Of a stretch of 30,728 nucleotides of DNA, positions 3,156 to 18,154 are shown piece after piece. Below the pieces are notes generated by a model, which worked only from the letters and a program-made list of their open reading frames with translations, was not told the origin of the DNA and ran no database searches. The stretch is taken from positions 1 to 30,728 of IMG/VR virus record IMGVR_UViG_3300037963_003217. One strand, written 5' to 3'. Made by a program: the position numbers and the translations under genes. The stretch is from a virus. Within the stretch, counting starts at the first letter, position 1; every line of letters begins with the position of its first letter.

Positions 3156-4210
3156 GTGATTTTTTCAGAAATTTAGCCGAAGACATAAAAGATGAAGATA
3201 CAAGCATAGCAGCTGATGGTGAAGGGTCTGCTGAATATTCTGGAACAATTGATACTGGATCTTACATTTTGAATGCTGTAATGTCTGGTAGTATGTATGG
3301 AGGTATTCCTAATAATAAAATCACAGCTTTTGCTGGTGAGACTACTACTGGGAAGACTTTCTTTGCTCTTGGAGTGATTACACAGTTTCTAAAAGATAAC
3401 CCAGATGGAGGTATCATCTACTATGATACTGAAGCTGCGGTTACTAAAGATATGATGGAAAGTCGAGGTATTGACACTCAACGTGTTATCTTGGCTGAGC
3501 CACAATCTATTCAGTCGTTCAGGCAACATGCTTTGAAGACGATTGAACAATATGAAAAGACACCTGTAGATAAACGTCCACCCATGATGATGGTATTGGA
3601 CTCACTTGGTATTCTCTCATCTGAGAAAGAACTTGCAGATAGTCTAGCTGGTAATGATACCAGAGATATGACTAAAGCACAATTGATCAGAGGTACATTT
3701 AGAGTGTTGACTCTGAAGCTAGCTAAGGTTAAAGTACCTATGATTGTTACTAACCATGTCTATGAAGTCATTGGAAGTTATGTTCCTATGAAAGAGATGG
3801 GTGGTGGTAGTGGATTGAAGTATGCTGCTTCTACTATTGCTTATCTATCTAAGAAGAAGGAACGTGATGGTAAGGATGTAGTTGGTAACATTATTAAAGT
3901 GAAGATGTTTAAGTCTCGTCTTAGTAAGGAGAATAAAGAAGTTGAATGTTTACTTAATTATGATACAGGCCTTGATCGTTACTACGGTTTGGTTGAATGT
4001 GCTGTGGAGTCGGGTGTATGGAATGCGGTAGCTAATAGAATTGAAACTACAGAAGGTAAGGTATATCCTAAGCAGATCTTGAAAGATCCTGAGAAGTACT
4101 TTACTGCTGAAGTTATGGAAGTTATTGAAAAGCATGTCAATATGAAATTTAGCTATGGTGGAGATATAGATGATCGAACAGACGATTCTGTCGAATCTAA
4201 CGCAGAATGA
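3152..4210 (+). CDS. uvsX: UvsX recombinase (RecA-like)
   Basis: Strand-exchange ATPase for recombination-dependent replication and repair. Walker A is AGETTTGKT (61-69), Walker B is MMMVLD (145-150), and the RecA-type acidic residue lies in YYDTEAA (E95). The glycine-rich DNA-binding loop region is MKEMGGGSGLKYA. At 352 residues it is close to T4 UvsX (about 390). The C-terminus is acidic, as in many RecA-type proteins. It starts inside the stop of the upstream small gene (ATGA), and its last 41 bases overlap the gp41 start in another frame. In T4, gene 40 sits between uvsX and 41; here the two genes touch directly. Confidence 0.95.
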   Translation: MSDFFRNLAEDIKDEDTSIAADGEGSAEYSGTIDTGSYILNAVMSGSMYGGIPNNKITAFAGETTTGKTFFALGVITQFLKDNPDGGIIYYDTEAAVTKDMMESRGIDTQRVILAEPQSIQSFRQHALKTIEQYEKTPVDKRPPMMMVLDSLGILSSEKELADSLAGNDTRDMTKAQLIRGTFRVLTLKLAKVKVPMIVTNHVYEVIGSYVPMKEMGGGSGLKYAASTIAYLSKKKERDGKDVVGNIIKVKMFKSRLSKENKEVECLLNYDTGLDRYYGLVECAVESGVWNAVANRIETTEGKVYPKQILKDPEKYFTAEVMEVIEKHVNMKFSYGGDIDDRTDDSVESNAE

Positions 4211-5531
4211 GGAATACACTAGAAAGGTAATTCCTTATCTGAAAGATGAATACTTTCATGATTATACTGAACGAAGTGTATTCAAGTTAATTACAAAGTA
4301 CTTTGAAAAGTATAATAGAGTTCCAGACAATGCAGCATTGCTTGTTGAATTGAGTAATGCTGAAGGATTGTCTGATGATCAACATGCATCTGCAACCAAC
4401 ATTATAAATGAGTTTGGTATATCTTCTGATGAAGAATGGTTGATTGATGAGACAGAGAAGTTCTGTCAGGACAAAGCTATCTACAATGCTATCATGGAAT
4501 CTATTAGTGTTATTGATGGTAAAAGTGATAAAGGTAAAGGTGCATTACCTTCTATTCTACAAGATGCACTAGCTGTTAACTTTGATCCACACATTGGTCA
4601 TGACTTTTTGGAAGATGCTGATGCTCGATGGGAGTTCTATCATCAAGTTGAAGAAAAAGTTGGATTTGATATTGACTTACTAAATGAGGTTACAAATGGA
4701 GGATTATCAAAGAAGACACTCAATATTGTTCTTGCTGGAACAGGTGTCGGTAAAAGTATGTTTATGTGTCACTGCGCTGCTGGCAATCTACGCGATAACA
4801 AGAACGTACTTTATATTACCTTAGAGATGGCTGAGGAAAGGATTGCAGAACGTATTGATGCAAACCTGATGGGCATAACTATTGATGAAGTTAGAAGTTT
4901 AGATAAAGAGGTTTATGATAAAAAGATTAACAGGTTAAGAGATAACTATAAAGGTAAGATTGTTGTAAAGGAATATCCTACTACAGGAGCTGGTAGCAAT
5001 CACTTTAGGTATGTTCTTCAAGAGTTGAAAGTGAAGAAGAACTTTGTTCCTGATATCATATACGTAGACTATCTTAATATTTGTATGAGTTCGAGGATAA
5101 AGTATGGTGCAGGAGTCAATTCGTATACGTATGTCAAAGCAATTGCAGAAGAGCTACGAGGCCTCGCTGTGGAATTCGACTTGCCAATCGTCTCTGCGAC
5201 ACAAACCACAAGATCGGGCTACACGTCTAGTGACTTGGGCCTTGAAGACACCTCGGAGAGCTTCGGTCTGCCGGCCACTGCTGACTTTATGTTTGCGATT
5301 ATTAGCACCGAAGAACTAGAAGATTTACAGCAGATACTTGTAAAGCAGTTGAAGAATAGATACTCAGATCCAGCTACTAATAGAAGGTTTGTTGTTGGTG
5401 TAGATAGAGCCAAGATGACTCTCTATAATGTAGAACAGTCTGCACAAGAAGATGTGCTTGATGAAGCGGTATTTGATCAGACAGAAACTAATGAACGAAT
5501 GAAAGATATGTTTAAGGAGTTTGTATATTGA
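4170..5531 (+). CDS. 41: Replicative helicase gp41 (DnaB family)
   Basis: Hexameric 5'-3' helicase of the replication fork, partner of the gp61 primase. Residues 1-140 form the N-terminal collar (start MIEQTILSNLTQNEEY, like T4 gp41). The RecA core has P-loop AGTGVGKS (189-196), YITLEMAEERIA with the conserved glutamate, Walker B IIYVD (296-300), and motifs SATQTTRSG and LKNRYSDP. At 453 residues it matches T4 gp41 (475). The start at 4170 lies within uvsX, and homology supports it over later ATGs. The codons for about residues 327-371 are distinctly GC-rich compared with the rest of the gene (see findings). The stop overlaps a TTG start (TTGA). Confidence 0.96.
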   Translation: MIEQTILSNLTQNEEYTRKVIPYLKDEYFHDYTERSVFKLITKYFEKYNRVPDNAALLVELSNAEGLSDDQHASATNIINEFGISSDEEWLIDETEKFCQDKAIYNAIMESISVIDGKSDKGKGALPSILQDALAVNFDPHIGHDFLEDADARWEFYHQVEEKVGFDIDLLNEVTNGGLSKKTLNIVLAGTGVGKSMFMCHCAAGNLRDNKNVLYITLEMAEERIAERIDANLMGITIDEVRSLDKEVYDKKINRLRDNYKGKIVVKEYPTTGAGSNHFRYVLQELKVKKNFVPDIIYVDYLNICMSSRIKYGAGVNSYTYVKAIAEELRGLAVEFDLPIVSATQTTRSGYTSSDLGLEDTSESFGLPATADFMFAIISTEELEDLQQILVKQLKNRYSDPATNRRFVVGVDRAKMTLYNVEQSAQEDVLDEAVFDQTETNERMKDMFKEFVY

Positions 5532-5737
5532 GAGGCATGAAACATAAGTTAATATATCCAGACGAATCATCAGTATTGTTTGAGATATTGGAACTAAAAA
5601 CTAATCAAGTTATCTTTGCATCCACTATGGAAGAAAAGGCTATAGAAGTATTTCAATATTTGGAGAATGGAGCTGGATTTAACGGTGAAACACCGAAATA
5701 TTTAGCGCAAAACTACGATCCTCGTGACCTAGAGTAG
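5528..5737 (+). CDS. Small hypothetical protein after gp41
   Basis: A 69-residue unknown protein. Two starts are possible: TTG at 5528, which overlaps the gp41 stop as TTGA, and ATG at 5537. AAGGAG at 5514-5519 is 8 bases before the TTG but 17 before the ATG, which favours the TTG. The middle (EILELKTNQVIFASTMEEKAI) suggests a small alpha/beta fold. The C-terminus is polar. A late-promoter motif begins right after its stop. Confidence 0.65.
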   Translation: MRGMKHKLIYPDESSVLFEILELKTNQVIFASTMEEKAIEVFQYLENGAGFNGETPKYLAQNYDPRDLE

Positions 5738-5745
5738 TATAAATA
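5738..5745 (+). promoter_or_regulatory. T4-type late promoter motif (TATAAATA)
   Basis: Exact TATAAATA, the -10 element read by the T4 gp55 late sigma factor, directly after the stop of the preceding gene. A start about 6 bases downstream would be near 5751, just inside the 5' arm of the closing helix of the RNA at 5746-5917. Confidence 0.5.
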
Positions 5746-5917
5746 GTTCTGTCAATGTATGTCAAGTTTGGCGTGGGGGCGTCCAACTTAGAGGCAAGTG
5801 TCCAGATTAAGGGCAACAGGAAATGATCGGGCTATCTTTTGATCTGTGGGGTTCAGCCGGTCCATCATTGACAGAAGTAGAAAGGCCCGAGTGCATTAAT
5901 GCATCGGGCCTTTTTTT
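5746..5917 (+). ncRNA. Probable structured non-coding RNA, unknown class
   Basis: Part of a stretch of about 285 bases without a gene. TTCTGTCAATG (5747-5757) pairs perfectly with CATTGACAGAA (5866-5876), an 11-bp helix enclosing about 108 bases. Inside, 5764-5771 pairs with 5783-5789 (one bulged T) around a G-rich loop, and 5803-5813 pairs with 5836-5846 (11 pairs, three of them G-U) around a 22-base loop. GGCT (5830-5833) in that loop can pair with AGCC (5855-5858), a possible pseudoknot. An intrinsic terminator follows at once. I see no credible ORF. It does not look like a tRNA, tmRNA, 4.5S RNA or RNase P RNA. Confidence 0.7.
5882..5917 (+). terminator. Intrinsic terminator
   Basis: AAGGCCCGA (5882-5890) pairs with TCGGGCCTT (5904-5912). 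The stem continues inwards with TGCAT/ATGCA pairing, one bulged G and a small loop, and a run of seven T ends at 5917. This is the strongest terminator in the window, and it ends the RNA above and readthrough from the gp43-gp41 block. Confidence 0.92.
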
Positions 5918-5976: not shown

Positions 5977-6005
5977 TTGACTAAACTTACAAAGTTATTT
6001 ATAAT
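5977..6005 (+). promoter_or_regulatory. Sigma70-like promoter
   Basis: TTGACT (5977-5982), exactly 17 bases, TATAAT (6000-6005). It drives the small-gene block starting at 6023, with a predicted leader of only about 11 bases. The interval 5918-5976 between terminator and promoter shows nothing else. Confidence 0.85.
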
Positions 6006-6938: not shown

Positions 6939-8289
6939 AAACGATTCAAATTACAAGAAGTATATAAGTCCAGCATATGATTCTGGTTTAGAATCTATTA
7001 ATGGATCAAGAACTCTTACGTTTGAAAGTGTTCCAGGTATAAAAGAAAAAACATTTAGAGCCACTTTAAAAAACAATGCTTTCAACAGACAAGCATTAGA
7101 TACATTTAGAGATGAAGCATTTAAAAGGTGGAGAGGAGGTAATGCGTTAGGTGTTAAAGTTGAAACAGATAAAGGTACATTTGAGTTTTCAAGACTAAGT
7201 ACTGTAGATGCTAAAGTTGGACAAGGTTTTAACAAGGGAGACACAGCAGAAGGATTACTAGCTGCTGCAATGGCTGCAAGATTTGTTAGTAAAACTAAAA
7301 AGATTGCTAAATCAGACGTAGTCAAAGTTTTGAAAAGTCTCAAAAGAACTAGCAAAGATAGAGCTATACAAAGTTTTGATTCACCAAACGAAAATAAAAA
7401 TATAGTTGATAAAGTAAATCTTGTCATTGGTATAGCTGAAAAGAACATGAATGCATTGTTGGATCCAAAAGTTATAGATGGATTCTTTGATGATCTCATG
7501 AATTCAGTTATATTCTATTCTAACAAAGGCTCGGTTAGAGATTGGGCAGACTTGTTATATAAAAATAACAGAGTAGACACAATTGATATAAATGCCGATG
7601 GTTTAACAGATCAAAAAGGAACAAAAGTAGATTTGTTTGTTCTAATCAATGGTGAAAGAGAAAACTTAAACTTATCACTAAAAGCTGGTGCTGTAAAACA
7701 ATTTGGTCAAATGTCAGGAGCAACGTTTGATGTAATGGCAAAATTGTTTAAACCTCTAGGTGTAAGATTCAGTAGTTCCGATCGAGATAAGTTTAATAAG
7801 TTACTTGCAGACAAAAGATTAAAGATGCACTCAAAAAGTATTGCAGCTGTGTCATATGCATATCAACAAGCTGCAAAACAAATAACTGATAACTTAAAAA
7901 ACAATCAAGATCAAGCTGTTGAAATGATATCCAAGTTTATCAAATATCATGCAACACTTAATGAGGAAGGTGTTTCATTGGTTCAATTAAACAACAACGA
8001 AGCTCAGATATATGAATTTGATAAACTTTTACCAGCACTTAAAAAAGATAGTAAAGAATTAACAGTTTCAATTGTAGATCAAAGAATAGGTGCTCCTGCT
8101 TCAGATTTTATTGAATCTAAACCTAAAATGACTTTACCTAAGATAGTAATTCACCCAGTAGGCTTTGATCCTAATATGGGATTGTTAGAAATACGTTCTA
8201 AAATTGATAGTAAAGGGGCCTCTCAACCATTCTATCATAGAAATTATTTGAACAAAGGTAAATATCTAACTAAGTTAATCGCTTATTAA
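6919..8289 (+). CDS. Possible PD-(D/E)XK nuclease-like protein
   Basis: A 456-residue protein. The pattern suggests a restriction-endonuclease fold: E111 in a helix (GDTAEGLLAAAMAARF), then D238 in a strand (GTKVDLFVLING), then K255 in the next strand (LNLSLKAG), followed by KQFGQMSG. The usual E/Q before xK is replaced by S253, so activity is uncertain. The C-terminal 150 residues (PASDFIESKPKM, KIVIHPVGFDPN) are not assigned. The ATG lies 20 bases inside the oxygenase gene, after GTAGGAAAT. Roles could include host DNA degradation or nucleic-acid processing. It could also be a non-enzymatic phage protein. Confidence 0.6.
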   Translation: MANLYSKNDSNYKKYISPAYDSGLESINGSRTLTFESVPGIKEKTFRATLKNNAFNRQALDTFRDEAFKRWRGGNALGVKVETDKGTFEFSRLSTVDAKVGQGFNKGDTAEGLLAAAMAARFVSKTKKIAKSDVVKVLKSLKRTSKDRAIQSFDSPNENKNIVDKVNLVIGIAEKNMNALLDPKVIDGFFDDLMNSVIFYSNKGSVRDWADLLYKNNRVDTIDINADGLTDQKGTKVDLFVLINGERENLNLSLKAGAVKQFGQMSGATFDVMAKLFKPLGVRFSSSDRDKFNKLLADKRLKMHSKSIAAVSYAYQQAAKQITDNLKNNQDQAVEMISKFIKYHATLNEEGVSLVQLNNNEAQIYEFDKLLPALKKDSKELTVSIVDQRIGAPASDFIESKPKMTLPKIVIHPVGFDPNMGLLEIRSKIDSKGASQPFYHRNYLNKGKYLTKLIAY

Positions 8290-8537: not shown

Positions 8538-8803
8538 TAACTATAACGTATAAAGCTATATCTAATAAACAACCGTTTAAACAAGATTGGAAAACGGTTA
8601 GTGAGTTTTTTAATGATGTAAAAATATCTATTTGGGGCTCACGCTCTAAATGGTATATTGAAGATGGTTCTGTATATTATGAAAGAATTTATAAAAATAA
8701 TGATGAATGGGAAACCGCTATAAATTCTTTCCATAAACCATCTAAAATTAAAGCAAGAAACTTTAGGTTTGAAATTGTTAAAGAACAAGAAAGGCAAGGA
8801 TAA
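8534..8803 (+). CDS. Small hypothetical protein, second of three
   Basis: An 89-residue protein. The region DGSVYYERIYKNNDEWETA aligns without gaps to DGKLWVSNYYANSDDYDSA in the next protein, and WKTVSEF matches WTSVSEY, so these two look like paralogues. A basic tail (KPSKIKARNFRF) is unique to this copy. It starts with an ATGA overlap and ends with a TAATG overlap. Function unknown. Confidence 0.75.
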   Translation: MITITYKAISNKQPFKQDWKTVSEFFNDVKISIWGSRSKWYIEDGSVYYERIYKNNDEWETAINSFHKPSKIKARNFRFEIVKEQERQG

Positions 8804-17590: not shown

Positions 17591-18154
17591 ATGAAAAAGG
17601 TACTCTTTGGAGTGCTGCTGTTCTTCGTCATGTCTTTACAAAATGCTTATGCAGATACCAATACCGTATCTTCAACTGTGGTAACTGATAAAACGCCACC
17701 AACTGCTTCGGCACCAAGTGTCGTCATTAACAACAGCGATGTTTGCAAACTAGGTTTATCTGGTGCGATGCAGACATCGCTGTTCGGCGTTGCAGCTGGC
17801 ATATCCATTACAGATGAAAACTGTGAACGAATCAAGTTAGCTAGATCCCTATTTGGAATGGGAATGAAAGTAGCAGCTGTATCATTGCTTTGTCAAGATG
17901 CAAGAGTGTTTGAGGCAATGGAAATGGCTGGTACTCCATGTCCATACAAGGGTAAGATAGGTGAAGAAGCTAAGGCTGAATGGGATAAGCATGGAGCTCC
18001 AGCTGCACCTAAGAAGCCTACAATAGAGATATTAAGACCAAATAAAGAAGAGTCTCAGTATAAAGAACAACCTAAACACAATGACAAACATTGTGCTGCA
18101 TGGGAGTCAAAAGATGATTGGGGTAATTGCGTCGATCATGCTCATTCTGATTAG
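17591..18154 (+). CDS. Exported cysteine-containing protein
   Basis: A 187-residue protein with a clear Sec signal peptide (MKKVLFGVLLFFVMSLQNAYA, cut after AYA). The mature part contains spaced cysteines (DVCKLG, ENCERI, LLCQDAR, GTPCPY, KHCAAW, GNCVDH) that could form disulfides in the periplasm. ARSLFGMGMKVAAVSLLCQD is the best conserved-looking segment, and similar proteins occur in T4-like cyanophages. AAGGATATAAGGA precedes the ATG. The 3' end overlaps the next gene by 41 bases. Function unknown; export suggests a periplasmic or envelope role. Confidence 0.8.
   Translation: MKKVLFGVLLFFVMSLQNAYADTNTVSSTVVTDKTPPTASAPSVVINNSDVCKLGLSGAMQTSLFGVAAGISITDENCERIKLARSLFGMGMKVAAVSLLCQDARVFEAMEMAGTPCPYKGKIGEEAKAEWDKHGAPAAPKKPTIEILRPNKEESQYKEQPKHNDKHCAAWESKDDWGNCVDHAHSD

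Follow-up and report, generated by a model that had tools for sequence, protein, structure and literature searches.

The 30,728-nucleotide stretch of viral DNA analysed here in full (the window, a 30.7-kb virus record) carries, just downstream of gp41, the gene for a structured RNA whose family, found in uncultured T4-like phages, is new and matches no catalogued family. The locus is probably a stand-alone late RNA gene whose product would act in trans as the RNA part of an RNA–protein complex. Positions 5738–5917 comprise a T4 late promoter, the structured RNA and an intrinsic terminator, with T4-type gp43, uvsX and gp41 immediately upstream and genes for DNA primase, ribonucleotide reductase and a RuvC-like resolvase farther along. 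The features of the locus are as follows.

4170–5531, plus strand: gp41, DnaB-like primase-helicase; upstream gene in synteny with the RNA (Pfam DnaB_C, 3.8e-18)
5528–5737, plus strand: small conserved ORF (69 aa) separating gp41 from the RNA; about 30 member loci give blastp matches
5738–5745, plus strand: T4-type late promoter TATAAATA, exact match, predicted start at about 5751
5747–5757, plus strand: 5′ strand of the closing helix P1, TTCTGTCAATG, 11 bp perfect with 5866–5876
5764–5788 (about), plus strand: P2 hairpin, from the fold and from native versus shuffled energies
5790–5798, plus strand: J2/3, conserved junction strand AGAGGCAAG
5799–5815, plus strand: P3 hairpin UGUCC..GGGCA (5799–5803 with 5811–5815), from segment folding versus shuffles
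5819–5822, plus strand: J3/4, conserved junction motif GGAA, invariant in set A2 (see below)
5825–5830, plus strand: P4 5′ strand GAUCGG, double-sided changes at all six pairs
5834–5843, plus strand: P5, optional hairpin AUC..GAU; long inserts fold better than shuffles
5844–5856, plus strand: P6, 3 bp (5844–5846 with 5854–5856) and the 7-nt loop UGGGGUU, covarying
5857–5862, plus strand: P4 3′ strand CCGGUC, covarying
5866–5876, plus strand: P1 3′ strand CATTGACAGAA, from the fold and a compensatory change relative to locus L035
5884–5917, plus strand: intrinsic terminator, hairpin at about 5884–5910 followed by seven U at 5911–5917, from sequence and fold
5977–6005, plus strand: sigma-70-like promoter TTGACT-17-TATAAT ahead of the genes that follow and distinct from the RNA

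The segment 5740–5925 folds at z = −4.25 relative to dinucleotide shuffles, and P1 can be extended by pairing of 5863–5865 with 5759–5761. An earlier note, made from the letters of the window, had described a late-promoter motif just before the RNA, a strong terminator at its end and the absence of an ORF. All three descriptions hold: the promoter is TATAAATA, the terminator hairpin ends in seven T (it is missing from the list of one simple scan), and no plausible ORF is found in the RNA stretch. The small ORF upstream has no match in Pfam or PHROG. On the minus strand, a sigma-70-like promoter (TTGACA-18-TATACT, 11/12) overlies P1 at 5736–5765 and may be due to chance. Elsewhere in the window, further perfect inverted repeats of at least 11 bp with loops below 130 nt are present at 7933–8028, 8681–8731, 272–371, 7666–7796 and 17732–17784, in excess of chance expectation.

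Relatives of the RNA were gathered from loci of gp41 relatives fetched from IMG/VR. The nearest locus, L035, has an RNA of 70.6% identity in the same place, and remoter loci have in common only the short motifs AGAGGCAAG, GGAA and GUGGGGUUC, each with TATAAATA before and a terminator after. A first scan, with AGGCAAGWG and GTGGGGTTC as its two motifs, produced 64 distinct matches, of which 56 were retained and eight, found without late promoter and gp41 context, were dropped by eye as chance; with two more scans plus a filter on structure, the number of distinct members, or cores, in IMG/VR rose to 133. Because this filter demands pairing in P4 and P6, pairing percentages over the full member set are inflated, and the figures used here are instead those for A2, 47 sequences collected by two short motifs with pairing not required. 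A covariance model also recovers divergent members with the variant J2/3 junctions GCGGCAAG, GAGGCACG and GTGGCACA, and one divergent member (L067) has the loop closed by C-G in place of G-C.

The six pairs of P4 and the three pairs of P6 are paired in 99.5% of the cells in A2 (n = 47), and contain 123 double-sided changes versus 32.9 in shuffles, while in controls with slid partners the paired cells drop to 40–50%. Double-sided changes are found at 6/6 pairs of P4 (99.3% paired), and covariation at 2/3 pairs of P6 (100% paired). With compensatory changes beyond both the shuffled and the slid controls, the locus is shown to encode a structured non-coding RNA. The earlier note had proposed an unclassified structured RNA and named covariation in homologues and a search of Rfam as checks; both were run, and both bear the proposal out, since the P4 and P6 pairs covary and Rfam 15 at gathering threshold gives no match for the window or six homologues. 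The transcribed strand of A2 holds 20 G-U cells and no A-C cells, and as an A-C cell corresponds to a G-U on the opposite strand, the selection acts on the RNA that the late promoter would yield, and not on duplex DNA. An origin, recombination hotspot or cruciform that merely resembles an RNA would suit a position among the replication genes gp43, uvsX and gp41, but this strand-specific use of G-U and the consistent polarity of promoter and terminator make such a DNA element extremely improbable.

The closing helix is a separate matter. Its 11-bp perfect match (5747–5757 with 5866–5876) is exactly as first described, but the accompanying claim that such a match is unexpected by chance does not stand, since the window has 10 such 11-mers versus about 1.7 expected, with about 0.8 expected for loops of at least 60 nt. 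The helix alone therefore proves little, and evidence from relatives is needed; covariation supplies that proof. Across members, swapping the partners weakens the P1 duplex from −12.4 to −7.6 kcal/mol, and between the window and L035 a compensatory change converts TGTCAATG/CATTGACA to TATCAATG/CATTGATA. The P2 segments of 132 members fold at −5.2 versus −2.9 kcal/mol for shuffled segments, and those of P3 at −2.7 versus −0.6 kcal/mol, with UGUCC/GGGCA in P3 replaced by UGUAG/CUACA in L035. An insert of 13–16 nt accounts for P5 in 40/132 members; it is 4–10 nt, without P5, in the remainder. A loop-to-tail pseudoknot, also suggested at the outset, is not a feature of the family, as the G-rich P2 loop is present in four distinct members only (the window, L035, L146 and L162).

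The resulting layout, P1 – P2 – AGAGGCAAG – P3 – GGAA – P4[(P5) P6] – P1, is a four-way junction in which the unpaired strands are conserved and a 7-nt loop, UGGGGUU, is fixed. This inner architecture, in which P4 and P6 covary and P3 and P2 are supporting, departs from the minimum-energy fold. The unpaired motifs GGCA, GGAA and UGGGGUU are nearly constant across members. Part of the apparent invariance, that of GGCA and UGGGGUU, is imposed by the search patterns, since the pattern fixes AGGCAAG in A2, and the loop was demanded by the search pattern and by a later scan; GGAA was not demanded, and is invariant in 47/47 A2 members.

A TAAATA-type late promoter is located 31–68 nt before AGGCAAG in 131/132 members, where chance would give 0.003 per 38-nt window, and in 94 it is the exact octamer TATAAATA, with a background frequency of about 1 per 11 kb per strand. 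The late sigma factor gp55 (phrog_234) is present in 7/8 genome-scale member contigs. A terminator follows the RNA in 125/128 members with enough flank, at a median distance of 16 nt after P4, and the predicted RNA length is about 145 nt as the family median (5–95%: 133–169) and about 165 nt in the window, terminator included. Promoter, gp55 and terminator together point to an autonomous late transcription unit of the T4 type. The start near 5751 that had been proposed, which retains 7 bp of P1, is consistent with the geometry of T4 late promoters; the pairing of P1 across the family, however, fades gradually toward the promoter, with no sharp onset at +1. In a subgroup of three members (L158, L177 and L184), a T-rich run follows immediately after P1 (CACGACATTTTTGTTTTT), and there P1 itself may serve as terminator hairpin.

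The RNA is found 3′ of gp41 in all 221 loci that hold both (some of these are overlapping fetches of one contig), at a distance of 51–2361 nt (median 369). Two copies occur in none of the 221 loci, and each of the 8 genome-scale contigs has exactly one; a second candidate in the window at 17889–17949 (20 bits) lies inside an ORF, has neither late promoter nor UGGGGUU loop, and was set aside as chance. In the gp41 tree the carriers are strongly clustered (9 changes versus 41.6 when shuffled), showing that the RNA is mostly inherited vertically beside gp41. No RNA was found near gp41 in the nested gp41 lineages L001, L009, L036, L012 and L027, which implies that it is at times lost or moved, and is not universally essential. 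The loci where the RNA runs opposite to gp41 fall into one clade, explained by a single change (SH support 99), and promoter, structure and terminator are all retained there though the RNA faces gp41. As a general role, this excludes both a leader of the next gene and a gp41 3′ UTR.

The order of promoter, aptamer-like conserved core and terminator is the classic layout of a riboswitch or attenuator, in which the structured domain would sense a ligand and the terminator would gate the next gene. That cis-acting role is nevertheless very unlikely. The 3′ region of P4/P1 pairs with the terminator arm less strongly than shuffled sequence does (−5.65 versus −6.54), giving no antiterminator signal, and in the inverted clade the RNA runs into the 3′ end of gp41, leaving no gene for it to gate. 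Moreover, a second late promoter is present at most 70 nt past the terminator in 68/125 members (54%, versus 1.3% background), and the window has its sigma-70-like promoter there, so that downstream genes need not rely on read-through. The combination that a riboswitch or attenuator calls for, a competing antiterminator with a downstream gene to control, was thus not found at these loci. Taken together, the lack of a detectable antiterminator, the second late promoter and the inverted clade argue for a late RNA gene that is autonomous, and against a leader or 3′ UTR.

For such a gene, the favoured reading is that the locus would be transcribed from its own T4-type late promoter to its own intrinsic terminator, and that the transcript would fold into the four-way junction P1–P4, with P6 and the optional P5 on the P4 arm. 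The junction would then display the nearly invariant unpaired GGCA (J2/3), GGAA (J3/4) and loop UGGGGUU to a conserved partner that recognises this core, and the helices would need only to hold their shape. This partner could be a protein of the phage, for replication, late transcription or assembly, or a host factor that is just as conserved. We infer action in trans, in the late phase and within an RNA–protein complex, from the contrast between an unpaired core that is constant and helices that merely keep pairing. Invariant unpaired cores are also found in riboswitches and ribozymes, which counts against this assignment. A bolder proposal, which we put forward as doubtful, is that the RNA represents a hitherto unknown class and, in a large uncultured branch of T4-like phages, is built into the machinery for late replication, transcription or packaging as a dedicated part, be it a scaffold, a catalyst or a subunit of a motor or polymerase.

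A stand-alone unit with terminator and a length of about 145 nt is typical of bacterial sRNAs, and the exposed UGGGGUU loop, or the junction purines, could pair with host or phage mRNAs late in infection. A base-pairing regulatory RNA of this kind is nevertheless unlikely, since a seed usually drifts with its targets, and here the unpaired motifs are constant across gp41 proteins that are about 40% different, with the remainder of the RNA held as an elaborate junction. As a special case of the RNA–protein reading, a structural or packaging RNA like the pRNA of phi29 was considered, for which the predicted late expression would be appropriate. The P2 of 24/132 members (e.g., L187, L018 and L361) has a palindromic CTGCAG within a varying flanking stem, against about 0.005 expected per member, and in that part of the family a kissing-loop dimer through the CUGCAG P2 loop is possible. 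The palindrome is, however, absent from most members, the window among them, the family RNA is absent from 16 T4-like phage records, and the T4-type terminase is not known to need an RNA; a packaging role is on balance quite improbable.

The family was sought widely. With Rfam 15 at a permissive threshold, the window and its homologues gave only matches that fell well short of gathering, and many of these lay on the terminator. A possible likeness of GAGGCAAG/ACAGGAA to conserved regions of RNase P received no support from the Rfam scans. A strict-pattern scan of 84,980 prokaryote species genomes gave no member; six pattern matches in host genomes were judged from their sequence to be chance, none having late promoter or structure. 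Neither a blastn search of 50,697 phage records, with 19 members concatenated as the query, nor a covariance-model search of 16 whole T4-like phage records (isolates and single-cell virus contigs, including T4, KVP40, HTVC008M, P-SSM2, S-PM2, P-HM2, phiM12 and Melnitz) revealed a member, the best score in the latter being 17.3 bits versus at least 33 for members. One member locus, L249 (IMG/VR contig 2651869530_000001, 13606 bp), bears an identifier outside the metagenome series; its source may be a sequenced genome or a single cell, and it might give a clue to a host. Among the phage records it has no near match.

Deeply conserved, stand-alone structured RNAs are, to our knowledge, seldom found in tailed phages, and the function is known for only a few. 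The present family extends across a deep branch of T4-like phages, with more than 100 distinct members, strong covariation and no cultured member found; its natural inversion rules out simple cis roles, and its layout is that of a single-copy gene with predicted late expression. The novelty rests on the RNA family and not on the mechanism. For RNA biochemists it offers a defined motif to solve, and for phage biologists a concrete gene for deletion when a carrier comes into culture.

Like the pRNA of phi29, the window RNA is a small structured phage RNA with possible loop–loop contacts in some members. Unlike pRNA, it has no Rfam match and forms a four-way junction with different motifs, and it occurs in T4-type phages, not in relatives of phi29. 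T4 itself encodes the small stable RNAs C and D near its tRNA genes, with function unknown; in T4 the covariance model scores no higher than 10.4 bits. In the open-access literature, the searches led to the cis-regulatory RNAs of cyanophages, to CfrI and to the tmRNA of Melnitz, none of which is the RNA family of the window. CfrI of cyanophage S-PM2 is a phage-encoded non-coding RNA in a T4-like phage (PMC9602691), but is antisense to psbA, whereas the window RNA is intergenic and S-PM2 is without a member. The marine Melnitz-type phages have a tmRNA and a glutamine riboswitch (PMC9004378), likewise non-coding RNAs of a related marine phage, with no relation found to the present family, which Melnitz lacks. 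The cyanophage RNAs are wcaG, manA, PhotoRC and the glutamine riboswitch, structured RNAs of marine T4-like phages that are described as cis-regulatory (PMC2864571, PMC9602691). As for these, the window RNA is a structured RNA in T4-like phages, but it differs in matching no Rfam family, in having its own promoter and terminator, and in being able to face gp41.
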